Below, in pieces: positions 22,510 through 34,728 of a stretch of DNA of 34,839 bases. Positions within the stretch are counted from its first letter, which is position 1. Every line of letters starts with the position of its first letter. A model generated the notes under the pieces. The model saw only the letters and a program-made list of their open reading frames with translations. It did no database searches and had not been told where the DNA came from. The DNA is from an uncultured Planctomycetota bacterium (GTDB lineage: Bacteria; Planctomycetota; Phycisphaerae; Sedimentisphaerales; UBA12454). The position numbers were made by a program, and so were the translations under genes. The stretch spans positions 1 through 34,839 of the forward strand of contig CAINDG010000004.1 in the NCBI GenBank assembly GCA_903847315.1, read 5' to 3'.

Positions 22510-23979
22510 TTGAAGATAGCCGATTTAAGACCTGTTAAATGTGCACATCAGTATTATGTGCCGATTGGTAACAAAAATATGGAAAAGAAGTCGCCAGCGG
22601 AAGGTAAAAAATATCATTTTATCGGAATCGGCGGCGTTGGCACCAGCGCACTTGCCGCTGTGTTGATGAAGGAAAAAGCGATTGTCAGCGGTTCCGATGC
22701 ACAGGATTCAGTCCTGACCGAGCGTCTTTCGGCCGGCGGGGCGACTGTAAAGTCAGGACATACCGCCGATAATCTGCCAAAAGAAGTGGATGGGGTGGTT
22801 ATTTCCGCTGCCGTAAAAGACGACAATCCGGAGCTTGTGGAAGCCAGACGTCGGAAAATAATGGTTTACAAATATGCCCAGATGCTCGGCCTTGTGATGG
22901 ACAGGTACAAAGGCGTTGCGATTTCCGGCACTCACGGCAAAAGCACAACGACCGGCTGGCTTGTTTATGTACTGAAAAAACTCGGCATTGAGCCTAACTT
23001 TGTTGTCGGCGCGGACATTTCACAGTTTGGCGCATCGTCGGGCATCGGCAGCAGCGATATTTTTGTCGCTGAAGCCTGCGAATATGACAGGAGTTTTCTC
23101 AATCTTCGTCCGCAAATCGGAATTATTCTTAATATTGAGCCTGACCATCTGGATTATTATTCGGACATCGGCGAGATTGTCTCAGCTTTTGGCGATTTTG
23201 CCAACGGCATCAGGACAGATGGAATTTTGATAGCTGGAGGAGAGGATGCGAATGTCGCGAAATTGATTCCTGCATTGAGGGATAGGCACATTTTGACGTT
23301 TGGTTTGAAAGACAAGTTTGACTATTCGGCAAATCAGATAAAATTATTTCCCGACAGGACAGAGTTTACCTGTTTCAATAAGCAGAGAGAGATTGGCAAA
23401 GCAGTAATAAAGCTTGCCGGCGAGCATAATGTCAGGAACGCTCTTGCAGTGATTGCTGCCGCTGAGGCGATGGGTCTTGACGGCAAAGATGTGCTCGGCG
23501 TTCTCGGCGGTTTTGAAGGTATGGATAGGCGCGTAATGAAAAAGGCCGAGATAAACGGCATCACTATTTATGATGATTACGCACATCATCCGACCGAGAT
23601 AAAGGCGAGTCTGAAGGCTATGAGGCAAAAATATGACGGCAGGAAGATTTTCTGTGTCTTTCAGCCGCACCAGTACAGCAGGACGCGGTTTTTGCTTAAG
23701 GATTTCGCCGAAAGTTTCAAACTTGCCGATATGACTATTGTGCCGGACATCTACTTTGTCAGGGACACGGAAAAGTCAAAAAATGAAGTTAATTCGCAAA
23801 TGCTTGTAAATGCGATAAAACAGAAGGGCAGTAACGCTGTTTTTATCGATTCTTTTGAAAAAATTTGCGATTTTCTCAAAGATAGCGTAAAATCCGGTGA
23901 TATTTTAATAACTATGGGAGCCGGCGATGTCTGGAAAGTTGCGGACGAATATATTCAGTGGCTTAGAAGAAATAGTTAA
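22510..23979 (+). CDS. murC: UDP-N-acetylmuramate-L-alanine ligase
   Basis: Adds the first amino acid of the peptidoglycan stem. Family blocks are the dinucleotide-like YHFIGIGGVGTSALA, the ATP loop AISGTHGKSTTTGWL, EACEYDRSFL, the metal and substrate segment NIEPDHLDYY, and DDYAHHPTEI with FQPHQYSRTRFL near the end. I use TTG at 22510, because GGAG stands 7 nt before it; this gives 489 residues with about 30 residues ahead of the conserved part. An ATG at 22579 would start just before the conserved fold but has no SD. The 3' end overlaps murB by 53 nt. First gene of murC-murB-ddl-ftsQ. Confidence 0.93.
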   Translation: MKIADLRPVKCAHQYYVPIGNKNMEKKSPAEGKKYHFIGIGGVGTSALAAVLMKEKAIVSGSDAQDSVLTERLSAGGATVKSGHTADNLPKEVDGVVISAAVKDDNPELVEARRRKIMVYKYAQMLGLVMDRYKGVAISGTHGKSTTTGWLVYVLKKLGIEPNFVVGADISQFGASSGIGSSDIFVAEACEYDRSFLNLRPQIGIILNIEPDHLDYYSDIGEIVSAFGDFANGIRTDGILIAGGEDANVAKLIPALRDRHILTFGLKDKFDYSANQIKLFPDRTEFTCFNKQREIGKAVIKLAGEHNVRNALAVIAAAEAMGLDGKDVLGVLGGFEGMDRRVMKKAEINGITIYDDYAHHPTEIKASLKAMRQKYDGRKIFCVFQPHQYSRTRFLLKDFAESFKLADMTIVPDIYFVRDTEKSKNEVNSQMLVNAIKQKGSNAVFIDSFEKICDFLKDSVKSGDILITMGAGDVWKVADEYIQWLRRNS

Positions 23980-24823
23980 AAAGGACTATTCCTTAGGCGA
24001 GAACACATGGTTTGGTCTCGGCGGCAGGGCGGAATATTTTATTTGCCCTCGAACCGTTGACCAGCTTGCGGATGTTGTCAAACGCTGCGGCGAGAACAAT
24101 GTGCCGATACGGATTCTGGGCTTCGGGTCGAATCTTCTTATCAGGGACCAGGGCGTCAAAGGCGCGGTGGTAAAACTCGACAGCGAAGAATTCAGCAAAA
24201 TCGAATGTAACGGCCTTGTCCTCAATGCCGGAGCTGGTGCGGACCTGGGAAAATTGGTGCTCGACTGCGTTCGCAAGGGAATGGGCGGAATGGAAGTGCT
24301 TGCGGGCATACCGGGTTCTATCGGCGGAGCGGTGAAAATGAACGCCGGCGGAATCTTCGGCGACTTGGGCTCGTCCGTAGAATCGGTTACGCTGATGGAC
24401 AATCAGGGCAATGTTTTTGAGAAGTCCAAGCCGGAGCTGTCTTTCGATTACAGGCAGACCAATATCACGGCCAAATTCATACTTGCTGCGCAAATCAAAC
24501 TATACGAAGCGGACCCGCAGCAGCTTTTGAATATGGTCAAGGAAATATGGATTTACAAGAAGAACACCCAGCCTTTAAATACGAGAAGTGCCGGCTGCGT
24601 TTTCAAAAATCCTCGCGGTATGAGCGCCGGGGCAATGATTGACCGTACCGGCCTGAAAGGCACAAGGGTCGGCGGCGCGGTTGTCAGCGAAAAACACGCC
24701 AATTTCATTGTCGCCGAGAAGGACTGCAAAAGCGGCGATGTGATTTCGCTGATTGAAACTGTCAGGAAAAAGGTGAAAGAGAAGTTTGACGTTGAACTCG
24801 AACTTGAAATAGAAATATGGTAA
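23927..24823 (+). CDS. murB: UDP-N-acetylenolpyruvoylglucosamine reductase
   Basis: FAD enzyme that reduces enolpyruvyl-UDP-GlcNAc to UDP-MurNAc. The 298 residues have NTWFGLGGRAEYF, the FAD-binding GFGSNLLI and GIPGSIGGAVKMNAG blocks, and Tyr-Arg in FDYRQTN (175-176). The active-site loop reads SAGCVFKNP, so the proton-donating serine known from E. coli MurB (Ser229) is a cysteine (C224) here. The remaining acid is in the closing ELELEIEIW. The start has GGGAG 6 nt upstream and lies inside murC (53-nt overlap, different frame). A palindromic intergenic element separates it from ddl. Confidence 0.95.
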   Translation: MSGKLRTNIFSGLEEIVKKDYSLGENTWFGLGGRAEYFICPRTVDQLADVVKRCGENNVPIRILGFGSNLLIRDQGVKGAVVKLDSEEFSKIECNGLVLNAGAGADLGKLVLDCVRKGMGGMEVLAGIPGSIGGAVKMNAGGIFGDLGSSVESVTLMDNQGNVFEKSKPELSFDYRQTNITAKFILAAQIKLYEADPQQLLNMVKEIWIYKKNTQPLNTRSAGCVFKNPRGMSAGAMIDRTGLKGTRVGGAVVSEKHANFIVAEKDCKSGDVISLIETVRKKVKEKFDVELELEIEIW

Positions 24824-24834
24824 TGACCGTCAAG

Positions 24835-24930
24835 CGGTTGCGGTTGCGAGGCTCGTATCGGTTGCGTCGAACGTAAATCGTCATTCAATACGCAACCGTA
24901 TGACGATATACGAAACGAGCATCGCAACCG
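24835..24930. repeat. Palindromic intergenic element built from CGGTTGCG units
   Basis: In the murB-ddl spacer the octamer CGGTTGCG occurs five times in 96 nt: direct at 24835, 24841 and 24859, and inverted at 24891 and 24923. The outer arms 24841-24856 and 24915-24930 match at 15 of 16 positions. Inner perfect pairs are CGGTTGCGT (24859-24867) with ACGCAACCG (24890-24898), and ATCGTCAT (24877-24884) with ATGACGAT (24900-24907). The last two pairs are interlocked, so they cannot form simultaneously except as a pseudoknot. No coding potential. Possibly a REP/MITE-type repeat or an RNA regulatory element. Confidence 0.8.
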
Positions 24931-24964
24931 ACAGACGAAATACGAAAAGAATGGCATAATATAA

Positions 24965-25906
24965 ATGAATCTGAATAATTCGGGTGGATTGAAAGTTGCG
25001 GTTTTGATGGGGGCTGTTGGTTCAGAACGCCAGGTCAGCCTGGCAAGCGGAAAGTGCGTAGCCGAGTCCCTCAGAAAAACCGGAATGCTGGATGTAGTGG
25101 AGCACGATTTTCTGCCGGACAAGCCCTGGATTCTGGACGATGATAGCATAGACGTTTTTTTCCTCGTCTTTCACGGCCAGTTCGGCGAAGGCGGAGATAT
25201 GCAGGAAATCTGCGAACAAAAAAAACTGCTCTTTACCGGCTGCGATTCAAGGTCGAGCAGGCGGGCATTTGATAAAATGGCCTGCAAGAAAGCTCTCGAA
25301 AATGCTAACGTACCCGTTCCGCAGGCAGTCGAGGTCAGAAAATTTTCAGAACTGCCGGGCATTGATTCAAAGCTGAAAGTTATGGGCGAAAAGTTTGTGA
25401 TTAAGCCCATAAAACAGGGCAGCAGCGTCGGTGTTCAGATTGCCGAGGGGTATCAAAAAGCGAAAAGCGCCGCCGAAGAGTGTTTTGACGAATTCGGCGA
25501 TTGTATGGTAGAAAAATTTATCGCAGGCAGAGAAGTTACCGTGGGCATTCTCGAAGATAAAACTTTGCCCATTATTGAGATTAAAACCGCCCGGCAGTTT
25601 TATAATTATACTGCCAAATATAATGACAACGATACGCAGTATTTATTCGATACTATCCAGGATGTCCAGACGCAGTACAGGATAAACGATACCGCGATGA
25701 GAAGTTTCAAGGCGCTGGGCTGCAGGGATTTCAGCAGGGTCGATATAATTGTCGGCACTGACGGGATTCCTTATGTTATAGAGATAAATACGATTCCCGG
25801 CTTTACGACACATTCGCTTTTGCCCAAGGCGGCGGCAAAGGCAGGGATGGATATGAGTCAGTTATGTACGAAAATAATACAGACTACGCTTAAAAGGAAA
25901 GCCTGA
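24965..25906 (+). CDS. ddl: D-alanine-D-alanine ligase
   Basis: ATP-grasp enzyme making the D-Ala-D-Ala dipeptide of peptidoglycan. The 313 residues have the N-terminal GSERQVSLASG (family GG.S.ERE.SL.SG) and HGQFGEGG near 76-83, where most Ddl proteins have HG..GEDG. The ATP-grasp core contains FVIKPIKQGSSVGV, MVEKFIAGREVTVGIL and RVDIIVGTDGIPYVIEINTIPGFTTHSLLP at the metal site. The start has no clear SD. It follows the palindromic element, and its stop TGA abuts the TTG of the FtsQ-like gene. Substrate preference (D-Ala versus D-lactate) cannot be stated with certainty. Confidence 0.94.
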   Translation: MNLNNSGGLKVAVLMGAVGSERQVSLASGKCVAESLRKTGMLDVVEHDFLPDKPWILDDDSIDVFFLVFHGQFGEGGDMQEICEQKKLLFTGCDSRSSRRAFDKMACKKALENANVPVPQAVEVRKFSELPGIDSKLKVMGEKFVIKPIKQGSSVGVQIAEGYQKAKSAAEECFDEFGDCMVEKFIAGREVTVGILEDKTLPIIEIKTARQFYNYTAKYNDNDTQYLFDTIQDVQTQYRINDTAMRSFKALGCRDFSRVDIIVGTDGIPYVIEINTIPGFTTHSLLPKAAAKAGMDMSQLCTKIIQTTLKRKA

Positions 25907-26839
25907 TTGGCTGAGAAAGAAAAAAAATCCTGGTTCAGCTTCAGTTTTAAAAAGAAGCTCACGAAAACCGAGAAAAAGGAGCGGTCGCGAGCAGTCCGCA
26001 ATACAATTACTATCTTCACAGTTATTATTGTATTTGTGGCTTTGACGGCGGGATTTATTTTTTTTGAGAGGTTTGTGAAAAAAAGTTTCAACTTCGGCAA
26101 AGAAGCTATCCGTTTGGAACTGGTTAACGTGCCGGACTGGGTAAGTACCGACCTTGAGCAGAAAATAGTTGAAACGGCAAATAAAGGCGGCGTCAAATTC
26201 ATCCTCAGCGAAACGACGGCAAGACAGGTCGGCGAAAATCTGCAGACCCTCGCCTGGCTGTATAATACGCAGGTAACGGTCGGCCGAGAGGCTATAGTAG
26301 TAAAGGCCGACTACAGAAAACCGATAGCCTTAATAAATGCAGAGGACAGCCAGTTTTATATAGATTCCCAATCGGTGGTGCTCGATTTCGTTCCGGTCAA
26401 TAAGCTGGCGATTGTGGAGATAACAGGCGTATCGACTCATTTGCTTACGTCGCGTTCTGTTGGCACAAAATGGCAAAGCGATGATGCAACTGCCGCTGTC
26501 GAGATAATTGAACTTTTGGACAAGATGGACAAACAGGTTGAGCCGAATAAACCTTTGCTTGCCGAGATAAAATCGGTCGATGTAAGCAATTTCAACGGCA
26601 GGCGAAGTACTGCCCAGCCGCATATCGTCCTTTATGCCAAAGACGGTACGGAAATAAGATGGGGCGCACAAAAAGGCCAATGGCACAAAAATCTCGAGGC
26701 GAGAGACGAGGAAAAGCTCGCAATTCTCTATAACACATACAAGGAATTCGGCACAATTCAGATAAGGGCCGCTCAAAAGGGCAGTTTCATTGATTTGACA
26801 AAATCGCAGCACCTTTCGCTGCCAATCGACAGATACTAA
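25907..26839 (+). CDS. ftsQ: FtsQ-like cell-division protein
   Basis: The protein has 310 residues from TTG at 25907, directly after the ddl stop, with AAGGA 8 nt upstream. The topology is that of FtsQ/DivIB: a basic cytoplasmic N-terminus of about 32 residues, one transmembrane helix (about 33-53, ITIFTVIIVFVALTAGFIFF), then an extracytoplasmic domain. A POTRA-like part lies at about 65-135 and an FtsQ-type beta domain follows, with LYAKDGTEIRWG and an IQIRAAQKGSFIDL end. Position after murC-murB-ddl supports the call strongly. Direct sequence conservation is low, as usual in this family. ftsA and ftsZ, which normally follow, are absent. Confidence 0.8.
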   Translation: MAEKEKKSWFSFSFKKKLTKTEKKERSRAVRNTITIFTVIIVFVALTAGFIFFERFVKKSFNFGKEAIRLELVNVPDWVSTDLEQKIVETANKGGVKFILSETTARQVGENLQTLAWLYNTQVTVGREAIVVKADYRKPIALINAEDSQFYIDSQSVVLDFVPVNKLAIVEITGVSTHLLTSRSVGTKWQSDDATAAVEIIELLDKMDKQVEPNKPLLAEIKSVDVSNFNGRRSTAQPHIVLYAKDGTEIRWGAQKGQWHKNLEARDEEKLAILYNTYKEFGTIQIRAAQKGSFIDLTKSQHLSLPIDRY

Positions 26840-28545: not shown

Positions 28546-29214
28546 TTAGTGGCTATGTTGTCGCCACTGAGGCATTTGGTCGGGCGTAACTTTTTCCCAC
28601 AATCCTTTTTTCTGTTCCCTTGCTGTTTTTTCGAGCTGAATATATTTTTCATAATAACTATGGGGGAAACGTGTATCGGCATAGGCGAATCCTTGTGAAA
28701 CAAGCTCTTCATTTAGAATTCTGCCGCTCGTGCTACGTAGCGTACTACGCAGAGTAGTATCGGCAAACCTTACAAAAGCGAGCAGTCGGTGATATTTGTC
28801 GCGCGTTTTTGATAATTTATCCAGGAGGACGGTAACTTTTTGCCCCAATGCCGTTTTGGTGGTAAATTCGCTTGCCTCTTTACCATAATACATCGCCCCT
28901 TTGGGACTTTTTTCGGTTTCAGGCGTGTCAATGGCGAGCAGTCTGATTCGGGTAGTTTTGTAACTTGCGTCCGGTATGTCTATGTCGATTGTGTCGCCGT
29001 CAACGACCTTTACTATCGTAAAAGTTTTTTCATTATATTTGTTCCAATCGCTGTCCTGCGTAATTGAAGTTGGGACAGAAGTTTTGAGAAAGGGGTGAAA
29101 AGTTCTGTCGAACCATACAGCCGCCGAGAGCAATAAAAAAGCCGATGCCAGCAGAACATTCCGCTGTAATCGACTTTGTGCATATTTTATTTTTTTGTTT
29201 TCCAAATTAGACAA
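28546..29214 (-). CDS. Membrane-anchored thermonuclease-like (SNase) protein
   Basis: A Staphylococcal-nuclease-fold protein of 222 residues. One N-terminal transmembrane or uncleaved signal helix (about 19-35, VLLASAFLLLSAAVWF) is followed by the SNase domain at about 63-205. Active-site residues are in place by comparison with S. aureus nuclease: VDGDT (D74), IRLLAIDTPE (R91, D96, E99) and R143 in KYHRLLAF. An internal repeat TLRSTLRSTSGR sits near 154-165. The start is TTG, at 29214 or at 29205; the latter has better SD spacing to GGGGG. A hairpin lies immediately upstream and would hold that G-run. Likely an extracytoplasmic nuclease for DNA or RNA degradation. Confidence 0.87.
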   Translation of the reverse strand: MSNLENKKIKYAQSRLQRNVLLASAFLLLSAAVWFDRTFHPFLKTSVPTSITQDSDWNKYNEKTFTIVKVVDGDTIDIDIPDASYKTTRIRLLAIDTPETEKSPKGAMYYGKEASEFTTKTALGQKVTVLLDKLSKTRDKYHRLLAFVRFADTTLRSTLRSTSGRILNEELVSQGFAYADTRFPHSYYEKYIQLEKTAREQKKGLWEKVTPDQMPQWRQHSH

Positions 29215-29244: not shown

Positions 29245-30498
29245 TTATTTTACATAACTTCGCTTATTGACCGGTTTATCGAGTTCAAAGGTTTTGCATA
29301 CGCAGATTAGCGCCTTATCGCCCTGTGCCTTGTCAACGAGGCAGCTTATCCGTATTTCGCTTGTGGTTATCGAGTCGATATTGATTTTTTCCTTCGCCAG
29401 CGCACTAAACATCATATTCGCGACGCCGTAATGCGTTCTCATACCGACGCCGATTACGGAAACTTCGGCGATGTCGTCACGGTAGAAGACATTTTCGCAT
29501 CCGACCTTATCCTTGATTGTTTCGACGGCTTTCTTGGTGTCGTTAAAGTCGTTCTTGTTTACCGTAAACGAAACGTTGGCTTTTTCCTTGCTTACTTCGG
29601 TCTGGATGATGTCGTTGACGCTCACTTTTGCCTCGGCAAGATGCGCGAAAATTTTTGCCGCGTTGCCGGGCTTGTTATCGACGCCGACCAAACTTACTTT
29701 AGCGAGATTCTTTTCAATCGTCGCTCCTGATACAAGAATACCTTCCATTTGTGGGACCTCGTGAGTAATTAAAGTTCCTTTTTTATCCGACATACTGCTT
29801 CTGACGTGAATGACTACATTATATTTTTTGCCGAACTCGATAGACCGGCCGTGCATAACTCCTGCACCAAGACTTGCCATTTCGAGAACTTCATCATAAC
29901 TGATTTGATCAAGTTTGACGGCATCCTTGAAGATTCGCGGGTCTGTCGTGTAAACGCCGTCAACGTCGGTATAGATATCGCACGTATCGGCTTTCAGAGC
30001 CGCGGCCAGTGCGACTGCGCTGGTATCCGAACCGCCTCTGCCGAGCGTTGTAATGTCTTCGTTCTCGTCGATGCCCTGAAAACCTGCGACGATGACGATA
30101 TTGCCCGCGTTGAGATATTTCTTTATTTTTTCAGTGTCAATACTCTTGATTCTCGCCTTTGTATGAACGCTGTCGGTAATCATTCTGATTTGTGCGCCGG
30201 TCAGACTTATAGCTTTATAGCCCATTCCTTCAATTGCCATAGCCACAAGAGAAACCGTCTGCTGTTCGCCTGTGCTCAAAAGCTGGTCCATTTCCCGCTT
30301 TGGCGGATTGGGATTAACCTCAAGTGCATCGGCAATCAGTACATCGGTCTGCTTTCCGCGTGCCGAGGCGACCATAACAACCTGTTTTCCCTGCTTGAAT
30401 TCATTGATAGCCTTTTGGGCGGCTCGTTTTATTTTTTCCGCGTTGGCTACCGATGACCCGCCGAATTTTTGTACGATAATTTCTTTCTTTTCGCTCAT
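29245..30498 (-). CDS. lysC: Aspartate kinase
   Basis: First step of the aspartate family pathway. The 417 residues have the kinase signature VQKFGGSSVANAEKI at 9-23, the substrate and regulatory region TTLGRGGSDTSAVALAAAL near 150-168, and DIYTDVDGVYTTDPR. Two ACT domains follow from about 260, with VSLVGVDNKPGNAAKIFAHL and VSVIGVGMRTHYGVANMMFSAL, as expected for feedback control by lysine and/or threonine. It is the last gene of a hom-(PGM-like kinase)-lysC operon, with 2 nt to the preceding gene. The monofunctional form lacks a fused homoserine dehydrogenase. Confidence 0.97.
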   Translation of the reverse strand: MSEKKEIIVQKFGGSSVANAEKIKRAAQKAINEFKQGKQVVMVASARGKQTDVLIADALEVNPNPPKREMDQLLSTGEQQTVSLVAMAIEGMGYKAISLTGAQIRMITDSVHTKARIKSIDTEKIKKYLNAGNIVIVAGFQGIDENEDITTLGRGGSDTSAVALAAALKADTCDIYTDVDGVYTTDPRIFKDAVKLDQISYDEVLEMASLGAGVMHGRSIEFGKKYNVVIHVRSSMSDKKGTLITHEVPQMEGILVSGATIEKNLAKVSLVGVDNKPGNAAKIFAHLAEAKVSVNDIIQTEVSKEKANVSFTVNKNDFNDTKKAVETIKDKVGCENVFYRDDIAEVSVIGVGMRTHYGVANMMFSALAKEKINIDSITTSEIRISCLVDKAQGDKALICVCKTFELDKPVNKRSYVK

Positions 30499-30500
30499 AG

Positions 30501-31688
30501 TCAGCTCTTTATAAAGTATTCCATCAGTTCACAACCTTTTTCAATTTTCAGTCCCGACTGCGCCGCGTACGCCTCGCTGAACGGGTTATTCATTGTAGGG
30601 CTGATTCCAGTCCCAGCCATAGCAAAAGGCACGGGTTTGCCCGAATGAGACTGGCTTTTGACCGGCGTCGGATGGTCGGGCATCACAAGTATCCGCCAGC
30701 TTTCATATTTTTGCAGGGCTTTATATACCGGCCCGACTATGTATTTATCAATACGCTCAACCGCTTTTTTCTTCATCTCGGCGTTGCCCGCGTGGCCGGC
30801 CTCGTCGGGGCCTTCGATATGCACAAAAACAAGATCATATTTGTCAAGTGCATCGATTGCCGCCTCTGCTTTTCCTTTGTAATTTGTGTCCGCAAAGCCG
30901 GTTGCTCCCTCGACTTTAATAAGGTCGAAACCTATCAGCTTGGCAAGTCCTCTGACAAGGTCAACAGCGGTTATCGCCACGCCTTTCAGTCCGAACCTGC
31001 TTTGGAAACTGTCCATCGCGGCCTTTTTGCCCTGACCCCACAGCCAGATTGAGCTTACGGTATTTTCGCCCAAATCGCGCCGGATTTTGTTGATATCGTG
31101 GTCGATAAGCATCTGTCTCGACTTTGCCATCAGGTCAACAAGAAGCTCGGCGTTTTTGCCGCGGGGCAGATTTTTCACCACCTCCCGCCCGATTATGTCG
31201 TGCGGCGGCTCGGTATAAACGTCGAAATCCATCCCTTTTATAACGCAAATATGCCTGTAACTAACGCCGGGATAGAATTTGATATTTTCATTGCCGAGAA
31301 TTTTGTTTAAGTCCTCGACTATTTTTGCGCCTTCTGCGCTGGATATATGCCCGGCGCTGTGGTCAACCATTTTCTCGTCCGCGATTGTTACCAGGTTGCA
31401 CCTGAAAACCCAATCCGTCGGCTCAAGCTGAATATTCATCGCGACCGCTTCAATCGGTGCTCTGCCGGTGTAATATCTTTGCGCATCGTAACCCAGCAGA
31501 CCCATCATCGCGACATCGCTGCCGGGAGACATCTTTGCCGGTACTGTCTGGACTAATCCCTCTCTGCCGGTCTGGCTTATCTTATCGATGTTTGGAATCT
31601 CAGCCGCTTCGAATATCGTCTTGCCGCCGAACTGCTCGATAGGCTCATCGGCTGCACCGTCAGGAATTATTATCGCGTACTTCGTCAA
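30501..31688 (-). CDS. Archaeal-type phosphoglycerate mutase-like protein, probable homoserine kinase
   Basis: A 395-residue alkaline-phosphatase-superfamily protein like archaeal cofactor-independent phosphoglycerate mutase (ApgM). Metal and catalytic blocks are PDGAAD (9-14), SPGSDVAMMGLLGYD with the nucleophile Ser57, VHIEGPDEAGHAGN and VMPDHPTP. It sits between hom and lysC, starting with TTG inside the hom stop (TTGA overlap) with GGAGG 8 nt upstream. Related bacterial proteins in threonine operons have been proposed as non-orthologous homoserine kinases, and neither the usual ThrB nor thrC is seen here. The operon position supports homoserine kinase; the sequence alone allows mutase activity. 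Confidence 0.85.
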   Translation of the reverse strand: MTKYAIIIPDGAADEPIEQFGGKTIFEAAEIPNIDKISQTGREGLVQTVPAKMSPGSDVAMMGLLGYDAQRYYTGRAPIEAVAMNIQLEPTDWVFRCNLVTIADEKMVDHSAGHISSAEGAKIVEDLNKILGNENIKFYPGVSYRHICVIKGMDFDVYTEPPHDIIGREVVKNLPRGKNAELLVDLMAKSRQMLIDHDINKIRRDLGENTVSSIWLWGQGKKAAMDSFQSRFGLKGVAITAVDLVRGLAKLIGFDLIKVEGATGFADTNYKGKAEAAIDALDKYDLVFVHIEGPDEAGHAGNAEMKKKAVERIDKYIVGPVYKALQKYESWRILVMPDHPTPVKSQSHSGKPVPFAMAGTGISPTMNNPFSEAYAAQSGLKIEKGCELMEYFIKS

Positions 31689-33007
31689 TCGCTGTCCTCC
31701 GGTATATCGACTATCCTTATGCAGACCGGCTTGCTTTTTACTATCTCCAGTTTGGCAAAGTCGGCCAGCGCCGCTGTTATTTTTTTCTGCTGCGTCAGAT
31801 GAGTTATCACAATCGCCGGCACCACGTTGGCGGTATTATGCTCTTCGTGCTGAAGAACGCCTGAAAGACTTATTTCGTGGTTGGCAAGGACGGTGCAAAT
31901 TTGCGCGAAAACGCCCGGCTTGTCCGAAACCTTCAATTTTATATAAAATCTGCTGGCAAGTTCGTCTATTTTGCCGATTGAAGAGCTGATTTTATTCCTC
32001 GGCTCAAGCGTCAGATGCTTGAAAAGTTTTTTGGAGTTGCCCATCGCGATTTCGATAATGTCAGCCACAACAGCAGAAGCGGTAGGCATCATTCCCGCTC
32101 CGCGTCCGTAAAACATCGTTTGTCCGACCGCGTGGCCGAATATGCTTATCGCATTGAAAGGACCATCGACCCTCGCAAGGGCGTTATCGCTGGATATAAA
32201 CGAAGGATGAACCCGCAGGAAAAGTTTGCCGTCATCGGTTTTTTGCCCGATTGCGAGGAGCTTGAGGGTATAGCCCATCTCTTTGCCGTAGCGGATATCG
32301 ACTATGTCGATGTTTTCAATGCCCTCGACGAAAATATCGCTCGGCAGAATCTCGCAGCCGAAACTGATTGACGCCAGTATCGCAAGTTTGTGTGCGCTGT
32401 CGTGTCCGTTAATATCCAGTGCGGGGTCCGCCTCTGCGTAACCTTTGTCCTGGGCCTGCTTCAGTGCCGTGCGGAAACTCTCGTCCTTCTTTGACATATT
32501 GGAAAGGATGTAATTGCACGTGCCGTTTAATATGCCGTAGATTGCCTTTATCCTGTTGGCAGCCAGTCCTGTCCGGATTGCTGAGATTATCGGTATTCCG
32601 CCCGCGCAACTTGCCTCGAATGCGATACACTTATCGGCTTTGTGCGCTGCGGTATAAAGTTCGTTGCCGTGCTCAGCCAAAAGCGCCTTGTTGGCTGTAA
32701 CCACATCTTTGCCGGCAGCGAGCATTTTCAATTGGATTTCCTTTGCGATTTTCGTCCCGCCGACAAGCTCAATGCCGATTTGAATATCCTTATCGTTGAG
32801 CAGACTGTTCAAATCGCTGGTAAGGATTCCCGCAGGCAGTTTTACAGGCCGTTCTTTTTTCGTATCGATGTCCACGACCCTGGCAAGTTCGAGTTTTAGA
32901 CCTGTTCTTGCCTTGATGTAGTCGCCGTCTTCGAGCAGAATCTTCGCTACTCCGCTGCCTACGGTGCCGAAGCCGACCAATCCTATTTTTATAGCTTTTT
33001 CAGACAT
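31685..33007 (-). CDS. hom: Homoserine dehydrogenase
   Basis: NAD(P)H-dependent reduction of aspartate semialdehyde to homoserine, leading to threonine and methionine. From the ATG at 33005-33007 (GGAAG 6 nt upstream) the protein has 440 residues. The Rossmann loop is GLVGFGTVGSGVA at 10-22, the catalytic core has FEASCAGGIPII and GILNGTCNYIL, and AEADPALDINGHDSAHKLAIL is the substrate-binding hallmark. A C-terminal ACT domain (about 350-440, KLKVSDKPGVFAQIC) suggests threonine feedback. A longer reading frame with an upstream ATG was not used since its leading residues are not conserved. First gene of a threonine operon. Confidence 0.96.
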   Translation of the reverse strand: MSEKAIKIGLVGFGTVGSGVAKILLEDGDYIKARTGLKLELARVVDIDTKKERPVKLPAGILTSDLNSLLNDKDIQIGIELVGGTKIAKEIQLKMLAAGKDVVTANKALLAEHGNELYTAAHKADKCIAFEASCAGGIPIISAIRTGLAANRIKAIYGILNGTCNYILSNMSKKDESFRTALKQAQDKGYAEADPALDINGHDSAHKLAILASISFGCEILPSDIFVEGIENIDIVDIRYGKEMGYTLKLLAIGQKTDDGKLFLRVHPSFISSDNALARVDGPFNAISIFGHAVGQTMFYGRGAGMMPTASAVVADIIEIAMGNSKKLFKHLTLEPRNKISSSIGKIDELASRFYIKLKVSDKPGVFAQICTVLANHEISLSGVLQHEEHNTANVVPAIVITHLTQQKKITAALADFAKLEIVKSKPVCIRIVDIPEDSD

Positions 33008-33024
33008 AATATCTTCCAAGTTAT

Positions 33025-33042
33025 GTAAACATAGAAGTTTAC
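33025..33042. promoter_or_regulatory. Palindrome upstream of hom, possible operator
   Basis: GTAAAC-N6-GTTTAC is a perfect 6+6 dyad in the 69-nt rluD-hom spacer, about 18 nt before the hom start. It resembles a dimer-binding site. No regulator of the pathway is identified, and no riboswitch is seen. Confidence 0.35.
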
Positions 33043-33076
33043 CGAAAAAAGGCCGAATCTGCAAGCGAAAATCAGA

Positions 33077-33871
33077 CTATTGTGGGATATCCAGCAATAA
33101 CGGTTCAGCGTTCAAAAGTCGCTGAAAATTCTGGTCATTTACAAAGGCTGCAAGGCCTTTTGGGTTGTATTTTGTGAGCATTTTAACCGCTGCCTTGAAC
33201 TTTTTCTCAAGCGGGGCGATAAAATGGTGATTCTCAATCTCCAGTTGATATGCGCAAAGGGTAAGTCTTTCTATCAGGGGGATTTCTTTTTCGGCGTTTC
33301 TGGAAAGTTTGTAACCATGTTTGAAACTCGAAAGCATCAGCGGCTCATTTGTCCCGTACAGCGGGTCAATAGCGAGCGGCATACCGGCGTGGCTGAAATG
33401 GACTCTTATCTGGTGCGTTCTGCCGGTTATCGGCCGGACGGCGAGAAGGCTGATACTGCCGAAATTGGCCAGAAGCTGCCATCGCGTTTTGGCCTCTTTT
33501 CCTTTTTTGCTGTTAACCTCCATCCTTCGGGGGTCTTTGTCGCTTTGTATAATCAGGGCGTCAATTTCGCCGGTGGCGCTTTCCGGACAGCCTGTTACGA
33601 GAGCAAGATATGTTTTTTTGACGTTTGATTCCTCGAACAGGCTGCAAAATTTGCTCTGCGCCTCTTTATTTTTGGCTACTAATATTATGCCGCTTGTGTC
33701 TTTGTCGAGCCGGTGAATAATCCTTAAATCTTCTTCCCTGGTTTCTCTTTGTAAAACTTCGATAAGGTCATCCTTGCCGCTGCGGTCGTGCGTAACGCTT
33801 ACCCCTGCCGGCTTATTGACGGCGATTATATCGCTATCCTGATAAAGAATTTCTATTCGTTCTTTTGCCAT
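33077..33871 (-). CDS. RluA/RluD-family RNA pseudouridine synthase
   Basis: A 264-residue enzyme that isomerises uridine in rRNA or tRNA. The catalytic motif HRLDKDTSG is at 53-61, with Asp56. ILYQDSDIIAVNKPAGVSVTHD is the typical opening, and ITGRTHQIRVHFSHAGMPLAIDPLYG the conserved centre near 163-188. The N-terminal S4 domain of full RluD is absent, so it resembles shorter RluA/RluC/TruC-like members, and the exact target base is unknown. It lies 69 nt upstream of hom and may be cotranscribed. No SD is visible, although a TATACT sits just ahead of the ATG. Confidence 0.92.
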   Translation of the reverse strand: MAKERIEILYQDSDIIAVNKPAGVSVTHDRSGKDDLIEVLQRETREEDLRIIHRLDKDTSGIILVAKNKEAQSKFCSLFEESNVKKTYLALVTGCPESATGEIDALIIQSDKDPRRMEVNSKKGKEAKTRWQLLANFGSISLLAVRPITGRTHQIRVHFSHAGMPLAIDPLYGTNEPLMLSSFKHGYKLSRNAEKEIPLIERLTLCAYQLEIENHHFIAPLEKKFKAAVKMLTKYNPKGLAAFVNDQNFQRLLNAEPLLLDIPQ

Positions 33872-34041
33872 AGTATATTGTTTATGTTAAAACAGCGGAA
33901 AATTCAACAAACTTTTAAGATATCAGGGGACATCGCGGCTCGACAGAGAGGCAATTTGTCGAAAATTTCCGCCGGCCGGGCTTATCCATTGGCCATGGAG
34001 ATAACCGCTTGTAAATATTGTTCTTACATACGGGTTTTCTC

Positions 34042-34070
34042 TTGCTTTTGGATAGACATTTAATTAAAAT
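34042..34070 (+). promoter_or_regulatory. Possible promoter of the PEP-CTERM gene
   Basis: TTGCTT (34042-34047), 17 nt, TAAAAT (34065-34070): three and five of six matches, placed 32 nt before the start codon. The region is AT-rich. Confidence 0.35.
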
Positions 34071-34101
34071 AATATTGAATAGCGGTAAGGAAGAAAACAT
34101 T

Positions 34102-34728
34102 ATGAGAACAGGAAGAGGAATTCTCTTGGCTGTATTGCTGTGCGGGTTTCTGCCGGTAGTTTCCAGCGCCCAGTTAATCACTATCGGCTTTACTGGAACA
34201 ATTATCCGTGCTGACGACCTGCGGAATGTTTTTGGCGGCCAAATACATCTCAACGATACGATAACAGGAACTTATAGTTATAACACATCTACGCCGGATT
34301 CTAACCCGTCTGATATGAGTATAGGAGACTACTGGCATTACACCGCACCTTATGGCATCTCCGTTTATATTGGCGACCTTGTATTTAAGACCAACAGTAA
34401 CAATGTGCAGTTTTTGGTCGAGATAGTGAATAATGATCCTGTAGATGATTATCTGATTCGTAGTAGAAGTAATATATGCTCAAATGGTGCTTTGGTCGAG
34501 GGTATTAGTTGGCAACTTGAGGATTACAGTAGTACAGCACTTTCGAGCGATGCATTGCTGACAACGGTACCCAATCTTGCCAATTGGAATGATTATGGTT
34601 TAACTATTACTGGTCCAATTGGATGGGATTATCTGCTGCGAGCAGATATTACTTCTGTTACCCTTATACCGGAACCAGCTACATTACTATTGATAGTTTT
34701 CGGCGCAGTATTCTGTAAACGCCGATAA
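34102..34728 (+). CDS. PEP-CTERM sorting domain protein
   Basis: The protein has 208 residues from the ATG at 34102 (AAGGAAG upstream), beginning with a signal peptide (RTGRGILLAVLLCGFLPVVSS, cleavage likely after SSA near 23). The secreted part has many Thr, Asp and Asn residues, as in beta-rich extracellular proteins. The last about 20 residues are the PEP-CTERM sorting signal IPEPATLLLIVFGAVFCKRR: PEP motif, hydrophobic helix and basic end, recognised by exosortase/archaeosortase-like enzymes. The family role is exopolysaccharide- or surface-associated. No exosortase is in the window. An upstream extension in the same frame to 34018 lacks an SD and was not used. Confidence 0.9.
   Translation: MRTGRGILLAVLLCGFLPVVSSAQLITIGFTGTIIRADDLRNVFGGQIHLNDTITGTYSYNTSTPDSNPSDMSIGDYWHYTAPYGISVYIGDLVFKTNSNNVQFLVEIVNNDPVDDYLIRSRSNICSNGALVEGISWQLEDYSSTALSSDALLTTVPNLANWNDYGLTITGPIGWDYLLRADITSVTLIPEPATLLLIVFGAVFCKRR

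Follow-up and report, generated by a model that had tools for sequence, protein, structure and literature searches.

The gene between hom and lysC

In the DNA stretch analysed here (34,839 nucleotides in full length, hereafter the window), a gene whose product resembles archaeal-type phosphoglycerate mutases (ApgM) lies between hom and lysC, which raises the question of whether this protein serves glycolysis or provides the homoserine kinase step between hom and threonine synthase. The gene and its neighbours are as follows.

28546–29214, reverse strand: staphylococcal-nuclease-like protein (PF00565)
29245–30498, reverse strand: lysC, monofunctional aspartate kinase (PF00696)
30501–31688, reverse strand: TIGR02535-type protein (ThrB2, "proposed homoserine kinase"), 395 aa, TTG start
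31685–33064, reverse strand: hom, homoserine dehydrogenase with ACT domain (PF00742)
33077–33871, reverse strand: RluA-like pseudouridine synthase, upstream of hom

The original prediction described a phosphoglycerate-mutase-like gene overlapping hom by 4 nt and followed by lysC after 2 nt, with its catalytic serine and metal motifs intact, and the coordinates, the Pfam matches and the residues all agree with this description. The gene comprises 395 codons plus a stop, its TTG start is closely preceded by GGAGG, the TGA stop of hom sits inside TTGA, the first bases of the gene, and the ATG start of lysC lies 2 nt past its stop. Pfam gives only PF10143 (183 bits) and PF01676 (146 bits) for the protein, the GHMP kinase domain PF00288 not being found in it. 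The 459-aa frame of hom is probably over-long, and its real start is probably the ATG at codon 20 (33007), which fits the position where most homologues begin matching.

The key residues of the window protein are D10, S57, R76, R96, N98, D109, S111, H114, Y144 and R145, together with W217, D243, E292, D295, E296, H299, R332, D338, H339 and H348. By the established roles in the superfamily, Ser57 is the nucleophile and D10, D295, H299, D338, H339 and H348 are the metal ligands. The serine and the metal ligands are each found in 103/103 aligned relatives, apart from D10 (101/103), and this retention of the catalytic residues in 101–103 of the 103 TIGR02535-type proteins is unlike the degenerate sister class described below.

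Other genes of the window were also inspected. Of 80 named loci searched with tblastn, 41 carry the staphylococcal-nuclease-like gene on the same strand downstream of lysC, and 15 have an RluA-like pseudouridine synthase upstream of hom; the latter is probably unrelated in function to the threonine pathway. The protein at 34018–34728, with no match in Pfam, ends in the motif IPEPATLLLIVFGAVFCKRR, which we take to read like a PEP-CTERM sorting signal. At 22510–26839, genes for a Mur ligase, MurB and D-Ala-D-Ala ligase stand in a row as an ordinary cell-wall cluster, and the frame that follows them has no Pfam match and is FtsQ-like by position only.

Family models, published record and fold

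In NCBIfam, the window protein matches TIGR02535 with 515.8 bits against a cut-off of 446.3 (residues 3–394). This model is already named "proposed homoserine kinase", and therefore the idea behind the original prediction pre-exists in the family library. The protein also passes NF003242, "cofactor-independent phosphoglycerate mutase" (523 bits, cut-off 426), and the broader apgM model TIGR00306 (494.1 bits, cut-off 320), and remains below the cut-offs of the mutase-clade models PRK04024 (304.2 versus 489) and PRK04135 (186 versus 468). In ten proteins scanned with NCBIfam, the scores of NF003242 and TIGR02535 go up and down together; therefore, the mutase name is no guide to function, and for the TIGR02535 clade it is probably a misannotation. 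According to the residue classes defined below, the two class A proteins among these ten pass both PRK04200 and TIGR02535, the four of class B match PRK04024 or PRK04135 best (three of them above cut-off), and the four of class C fall below the cut-offs of PRK04200 and TIGR02535.

The original prediction also stated that related proteins had been proposed as homoserine kinases, which the model name and two papers confirm (PMC7311316; PMC9026213), so that the proposal is not new as an idea. In the first of these, mutants of BT2402 from Bacteroides thetaiotaomicron needed threonine in minimal medium, an Escherichia coli thrB mutant did not grow with BT2402, and homoserine kinase was among the commonest gaps predicted by GapMind in amino-acid pathways, with low confidence in 29/148 organisms (PMC7311316). 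The second gives the name ThrB2, its operons and a largely complementary occurrence with thrB in gut genomes, where 278 of 300 ThrB2 genomes are without thrB and, by subtraction, 22 carry both (PMC9026213). A third paper regards BT2402 as an alternative homoserine kinase and describes its zinc sites as conserved (PMC9765024). The window protein is like ThrB2 in belonging to the same family above cut-off, in its pathway context and in a similar complementarity with thrB; in contrast, our case concerns Planctomycetota and flanks of hom and lysC, and the gut study Bacteroidetes and Firmicutes with asd, hom or thrC as neighbours. No enzyme assay of a TIGR02535 protein was found in the open literature, nor any paper other than PMC9026213 that deals with homoserine kinase in Planctomycetes.

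An AlphaFold2 model of the window protein built from 37 sequences (mean pLDDT 95.1, pTM 0.91) matches 2zkt_B best among solved structures (Z 45.7, rmsd 2.3, 368 residues aligned), followed by 3kd8_A (Z 35.0, rmsd 4.7, 355 aligned) and 3idd_A (Z 33.6, rmsd 5.0, 352 aligned), with GpmI-type mutases next, near Z 22. The modelled protein folds like a phosphoglycerate mutase of the archaeal type, and the substrate is not told by the fold. Profile alignment to GpmI was tried for mapping the substrate residues and set aside: the TIGR02535 set gave no usable alignment, and that of the mutase set, at 81% probability and with long gaps, was too weak for mapping single arginines.

Homoserine kinases and mutases in the genome and its relatives

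The genome from which the window comes (2.44 Mb, 97% complete) holds PF10143 once. Its single GHMP kinase is IspE (199.6 bits, cut-off 138.7), a protein that reaches 58.7 bits with the thrB model against a cut-off of 168.25, and neither thrB_alt nor GpmA has a match in this genome. In contrast to GpmA, GpmI is present over the whole length of the model (643.7 bits), and thrC, for threonine synthase, is found above cut-off elsewhere in the genome. A homoserine kinase of the shikimate-kinase type, as noted for Desulfovibrio (PMC5764234), was considered and rejected. The genome has a single PF01202 protein, which is presumably its shikimate kinase. The original prediction had held that the homoserine kinase step was missing between hom and threonine synthase, and had named a normal thrB together with the lack of any other phosphoglycerate mutase as the combination that would speak against it; both halves came out in its favour, as no known homoserine kinase was found in the genome next to its thrC, and a full-length GpmI is present.

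A set of 118 genomes of relatives, our own included, was also searched; its closest named members, at most 88% identical, are drafts from Planctomycetota, some of which bear the title Phycisphaerae or Phycisphaerales. Scores above cut-off were obtained for TIGR02535 in 104/118, for GpmI in 108/118 and for thrB in 0/118. The thrB model was above cut-off in 11/14 control genomes, and therefore the search works. Weak thrB matches (E 0.001) occur in 109 of the 118 genomes, the one in our own genome having been classified, as IspE. As to the mutase role, this set is less clear-cut than the phylum sample below: among its seven genomes without GpmI, G058 and G088 carry a second, mutase-type paralogue, and in the other five, all drafts, neither GpmA nor a mutase-type second gene was found. 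Among these five, G076 is also without TIGR02535 and G066 has two partial TIGR02535 matches.

Mutual exclusion with thrB across Planctomycetota

A sample of 196 Planctomycetota genomes with a completeness of 85% or more contains 52 with TIGR02535 above cut-off and 61 with a thrB match of E 1e-25 or better (54 of these above cut-off), and no genome among the 196 holds both. The families with TIGR02535 (17) and those with thrB (21) have none in common. The Fisher value for this exclusion is 9e-11 when relatedness is ignored and about 8e-4 when the genomes are collapsed to families, taking an estimated count of 69 families. However, 83 of the 196 genomes have neither thrB nor TIGR02535 above cut-off; therefore, the absence of thrB alone is common, which counts against reading the protein as a homoserine phosphotransferase.

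An exclusion of thrB by any ApgM-like gene was also considered and rejected, since 7 of 23 mutase-type and 6 of 28 degenerate relatives typed by their residues co-occur with thrB (the other degenerate ones are in genomes without thrB), compared with 0/48 for class A, each counted by the genome of the typed protein. Therefore, only the TIGR02535 clade shows the exclusion.

GpmI matches are present in 107 of the 196 genomes, 101 above cut-off. Among the 52 TIGR02535 carriers, 23 have GpmI and none of these 23 has a second ApgM-type gene, and 26 of the 29 carriers without GpmI do have one, some of the 26 being partial matches or lying outside the matches listed. Residue typing of nine of these 26 assigned every one of the nine to the mutase type. 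GpmA, sought in 13 genomes, is present in two of the remaining three carriers (G179, 400.6 bits; G299, 397.3 bits); in the third, the 86%-complete draft G166, no GpmI, second ApgM-type gene or GpmA was found. Thus, 51 of the 52 carriers have another mutase candidate (GpmI, GpmA or a second ApgM-type gene), as expected if the TIGR02535 protein is not glycolytic, and the phosphoglycerate mutase role looks to be filled by other genes in the carriers.

Gene context in two phyla

In the tblastn search of the 80 named loci, 66 have hom upstream and 72 have lysC downstream, in each case on the same strand; the alignment ends lie less than 150 bp apart in 43 of the hom cases and 56 of the lysC cases. 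The counts include one weak hom match (L072) and one weak lysC match (L082) and are both limited by contig ends. Therefore, the arrangement is not due to chance. In 16 loci thrC is also found upstream (tblastn), all within the 23 loci L094–L116, 22 of which are titled Omnitrophota or Omnitrophica. Two of these (L104 and L108) present the order hom, thrC, a phosphopantothenoylcysteine-synthase-like gene, the TIGR02535 gene, lysC and a citramalate-synthase-like gene, with a carbon-starvation-protein-like gene before lysC in L108; these three "-like" names were assigned by reading the translations.

In a wider set, hom, lysC or thrC lies within about 3 kb in 19 of 45 TIGR02535-type loci (in a single case through a weak match to hom), and none of the three was found within about 3 kb in the other 26, some of which have a shorter flank, so that a fully linked operon is ruled out as the rule. 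Such linkage was observed in 0/15 loci of the other ApgM types and in 0/10 degenerate-class loci with flanks, two groups that partly overlap.

Residue classes and phylogeny

The alignment joined 103 TIGR02535-type proteins, after three of 100 loci had been dropped as too short (360 aa or less), to 15 ApgM-type proteins of other kinds and to the solved chains 2zkt and 3idd. D10, S57, R76, R96, N98, D109, R145, D295, D338, H339 and H348 form a frame common to the whole alignment, and H299 is present in 103/103 TIGR02535-type proteins and both solved chains and replaced by E in 9 of the 17 others. The window protein has the fold, the catalytic serine and most of the metal site of ApgM (2zkt, 3kd8, 3idd). 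In contrast, where 2zkt and 3idd have R111, R114, H144, R217, K292 and V332, it carries S, H, Y, W, E and R, so that the four basic positions of the mutase clade (R111, R114, R217 and K292) are occupied by S, H, W and E. We infer that the loss of these four basic residues and the gain of acids would fit an amino-acid substrate better than phosphoglycerate.

Residue typing of 199 proteins distinguished three classes, class A being defined by W217, E292 and the catalytic set, class B by R217 and K292, and class C as the rest. This typing took in 44 of the 52 carrier genomes together with G213, G147, G118 and G058, leaving out G249, G259 and six genomes of the organism's own order. All 144 class A proteins have D243 and E296; their position 111 is S, T, C or A, and position 114 is nearly always H (128) or Q (12). 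In the 25 class B proteins, which include 2zkt and 3idd, R111 is found in 25/25 and R114 in 24/25. Class C has 30 members, two of them placed there only by a gap at residue 10 and one (L163) grouping with class B; the remaining ones mostly keep W217 and R332 and have lost parts of the metal and serine site. In a midpoint-rooted FastTree reconstruction of 114 sequences, class A forms a clade (61/61, support 0.863), 27 of 28 class C proteins branch as its sister with a support of 0.656, and both together are supported at 0.974.

Class C proteins are found among L132–L179, with further examples at L221:3340-4593, L223:3424-4890, L225:3451-4701 and L226:3226-4779, and from their residues they may be non-enzymatic or altered in function. 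In three of six degenerate-class loci scanned, a valyl-tRNA-synthetase-type gene directly follows the mutase-like gene, as observed in a scan of ten frames:

L221, 4590–7289: valyl-tRNA-synthetase-type gene (PF00133, PF10458)
L226, 4813–7509: valyl-tRNA-synthetase-type gene (PF00133, PF10458)
L228, 816–3641: valyl-tRNA-synthetase-type gene (PF00133, PF10458)

Alternative functions

The protein could be a glycolytic phosphoglycerate mutase of the ordinary archaeal type whose gene stands in an amino-acid gene cluster by happenstance, as its fold and catalytic frame, with 2zkt_B as best match, and the names of NF003242 (scoring slightly above TIGR02535) and TIGR00306 would have it. Indeed, Foster et al. 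count the archaeal-type genes of bacteria as phosphoglycerate mutases, the sole form in 18 genomes, and report that three Dehalococcoides each have two such genes with separate ancestries (PMC2964296); Dehalococcoides and B. thetaiotaomicron are in turn listed without any known homoserine kinase in another source (PMC5764234). Nevertheless, the full-length GpmI of the genome, the other mutase candidates in 51/52 carriers of the phylum, the absence of thrB from all 52, the exchange of the four basic residues that mutase-type proteins conserve and the scores under the PRK04024 and PRK04135 cut-offs make this reading very unlikely. A bifunctional protein, acting both as phosphoglycerate mutase and as homoserine phosphotransferase, would account for the intact catalytic frame and for the draft carriers without GpmI that show no mutase-type candidate (G047, G066, G090 and G096); the same 51/52 carriers and the loss of the basic residues of the mutase-type clade speak against it, and we consider it no likelier than an ordinary mutase, if anything less so.

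The phosphorylation of another hydroxy amino acid must also be weighed, for example of L-threonine, an isomer of homoserine, for cobamide assembly. Such a role as L-threonine kinase was proposed for Dehre_1608 of Dehalobacter, a TIGR02535-related gene within a corrinoid operon (PMC4285132). However, the neighbours here are hom and lysC, and a threonine kinase would leave the absence of thrB in all carriers of the phylum sample unexplained, so that this role seems very improbable.

Proposed function and mechanism

We consider it very probable, from these comparisons of sequences, that the TIGR02535 gene encodes the homoserine phosphotransferase of this organism, a non-orthologous replacement of ThrB between the hom and thrC steps. 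This reading is favoured because thrB is absent phylum-wide in the carriers, the operon context recurs in two phyla and the active-site changes agree with it. Counting against it are the failure of BT2402 to restore growth of the E. coli thrB mutant, the 22 gut genomes with both genes, the mutase names of NF003242 and TIGR00306, the 26 wider loci without linkage and the five draft relatives in which no other mutase candidate was found. The protein would have in common with the GHMP homoserine kinase ThrB (TIGR00191) the proposed product and the pathway step, unlike which it belongs to a different protein family. The original prediction of a probable non-orthologous homoserine kinase is thus upheld as to the phosphotransfer role, by the absence of thrB, the presence of GpmI, the gene context and the residue changes, the activity itself being inferred; in contrast, ATP as the donor, as assumed in its suggested assay, is not suggested by the phosphoserine chemistry of the superfamily.

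Phosphoserine chemistry is the established mechanism in this superfamily, and because of it we propose that Ser57, lying between two metal ions, would take the phosphate from a phosphorylated donor to give a phosphoserine enzyme, which would then pass it to the side-chain hydroxyl of L-homoserine. E292, E296 and D243 may hold the amino group of homoserine, and the loss of R111, R114, R217 and K292 would spoil phosphoglycerate binding, the changed residues having been assigned to the pocket by alignment rather than from a ligand structure. Phosphoenolpyruvate, another phosphomonoester or an acyl phosphate would be a more natural donor than ATP for this superfamily. PhpG (NF038358) is an ApgM-related transferase whose name gives 3-phosphoglycerate as its substrate. 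The window protein is related to it in sequence (226 bits) and lies far below the PhpG cut-off of 545; the name of PhpG suggests that the ApgM scaffold can serve transfer between two molecules.

More tentatively, and with slightly more doubt than belief, the TIGR02535 clade as a whole could represent a separate chemistry of homoserine phosphorylation, a two-metal phosphoserine transferase with a donor other than ATP (phosphoenolpyruvate or an acyl phosphate, for example the aspartyl phosphate of lysC). It would have arisen within the phosphoglycerate mutase family as basic pocket residues gave way to acidic and aromatic ones, and would take the place of thrB in much of Planctomycetota as well as in Omnitrophota.

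What is new here is that thrB is absent from 52/52 carriers sampled in one phylum, with glycolysis accounted for, to which are added the cluster with thrC in a second phylum and a residue signature that appears to separate two functions. The curated models give these proteins both names, phosphoglycerate mutase and proposed homoserine kinase, and W217 and E292 with D243 and E296, taken together with the absence of thrB and the presence of another mutase candidate, provide a rule separating the two functions. The signature residues also point to targets for mutation, and the rule would correct the annotation of glycolysis and threonine biosynthesis in many environmental genomes.
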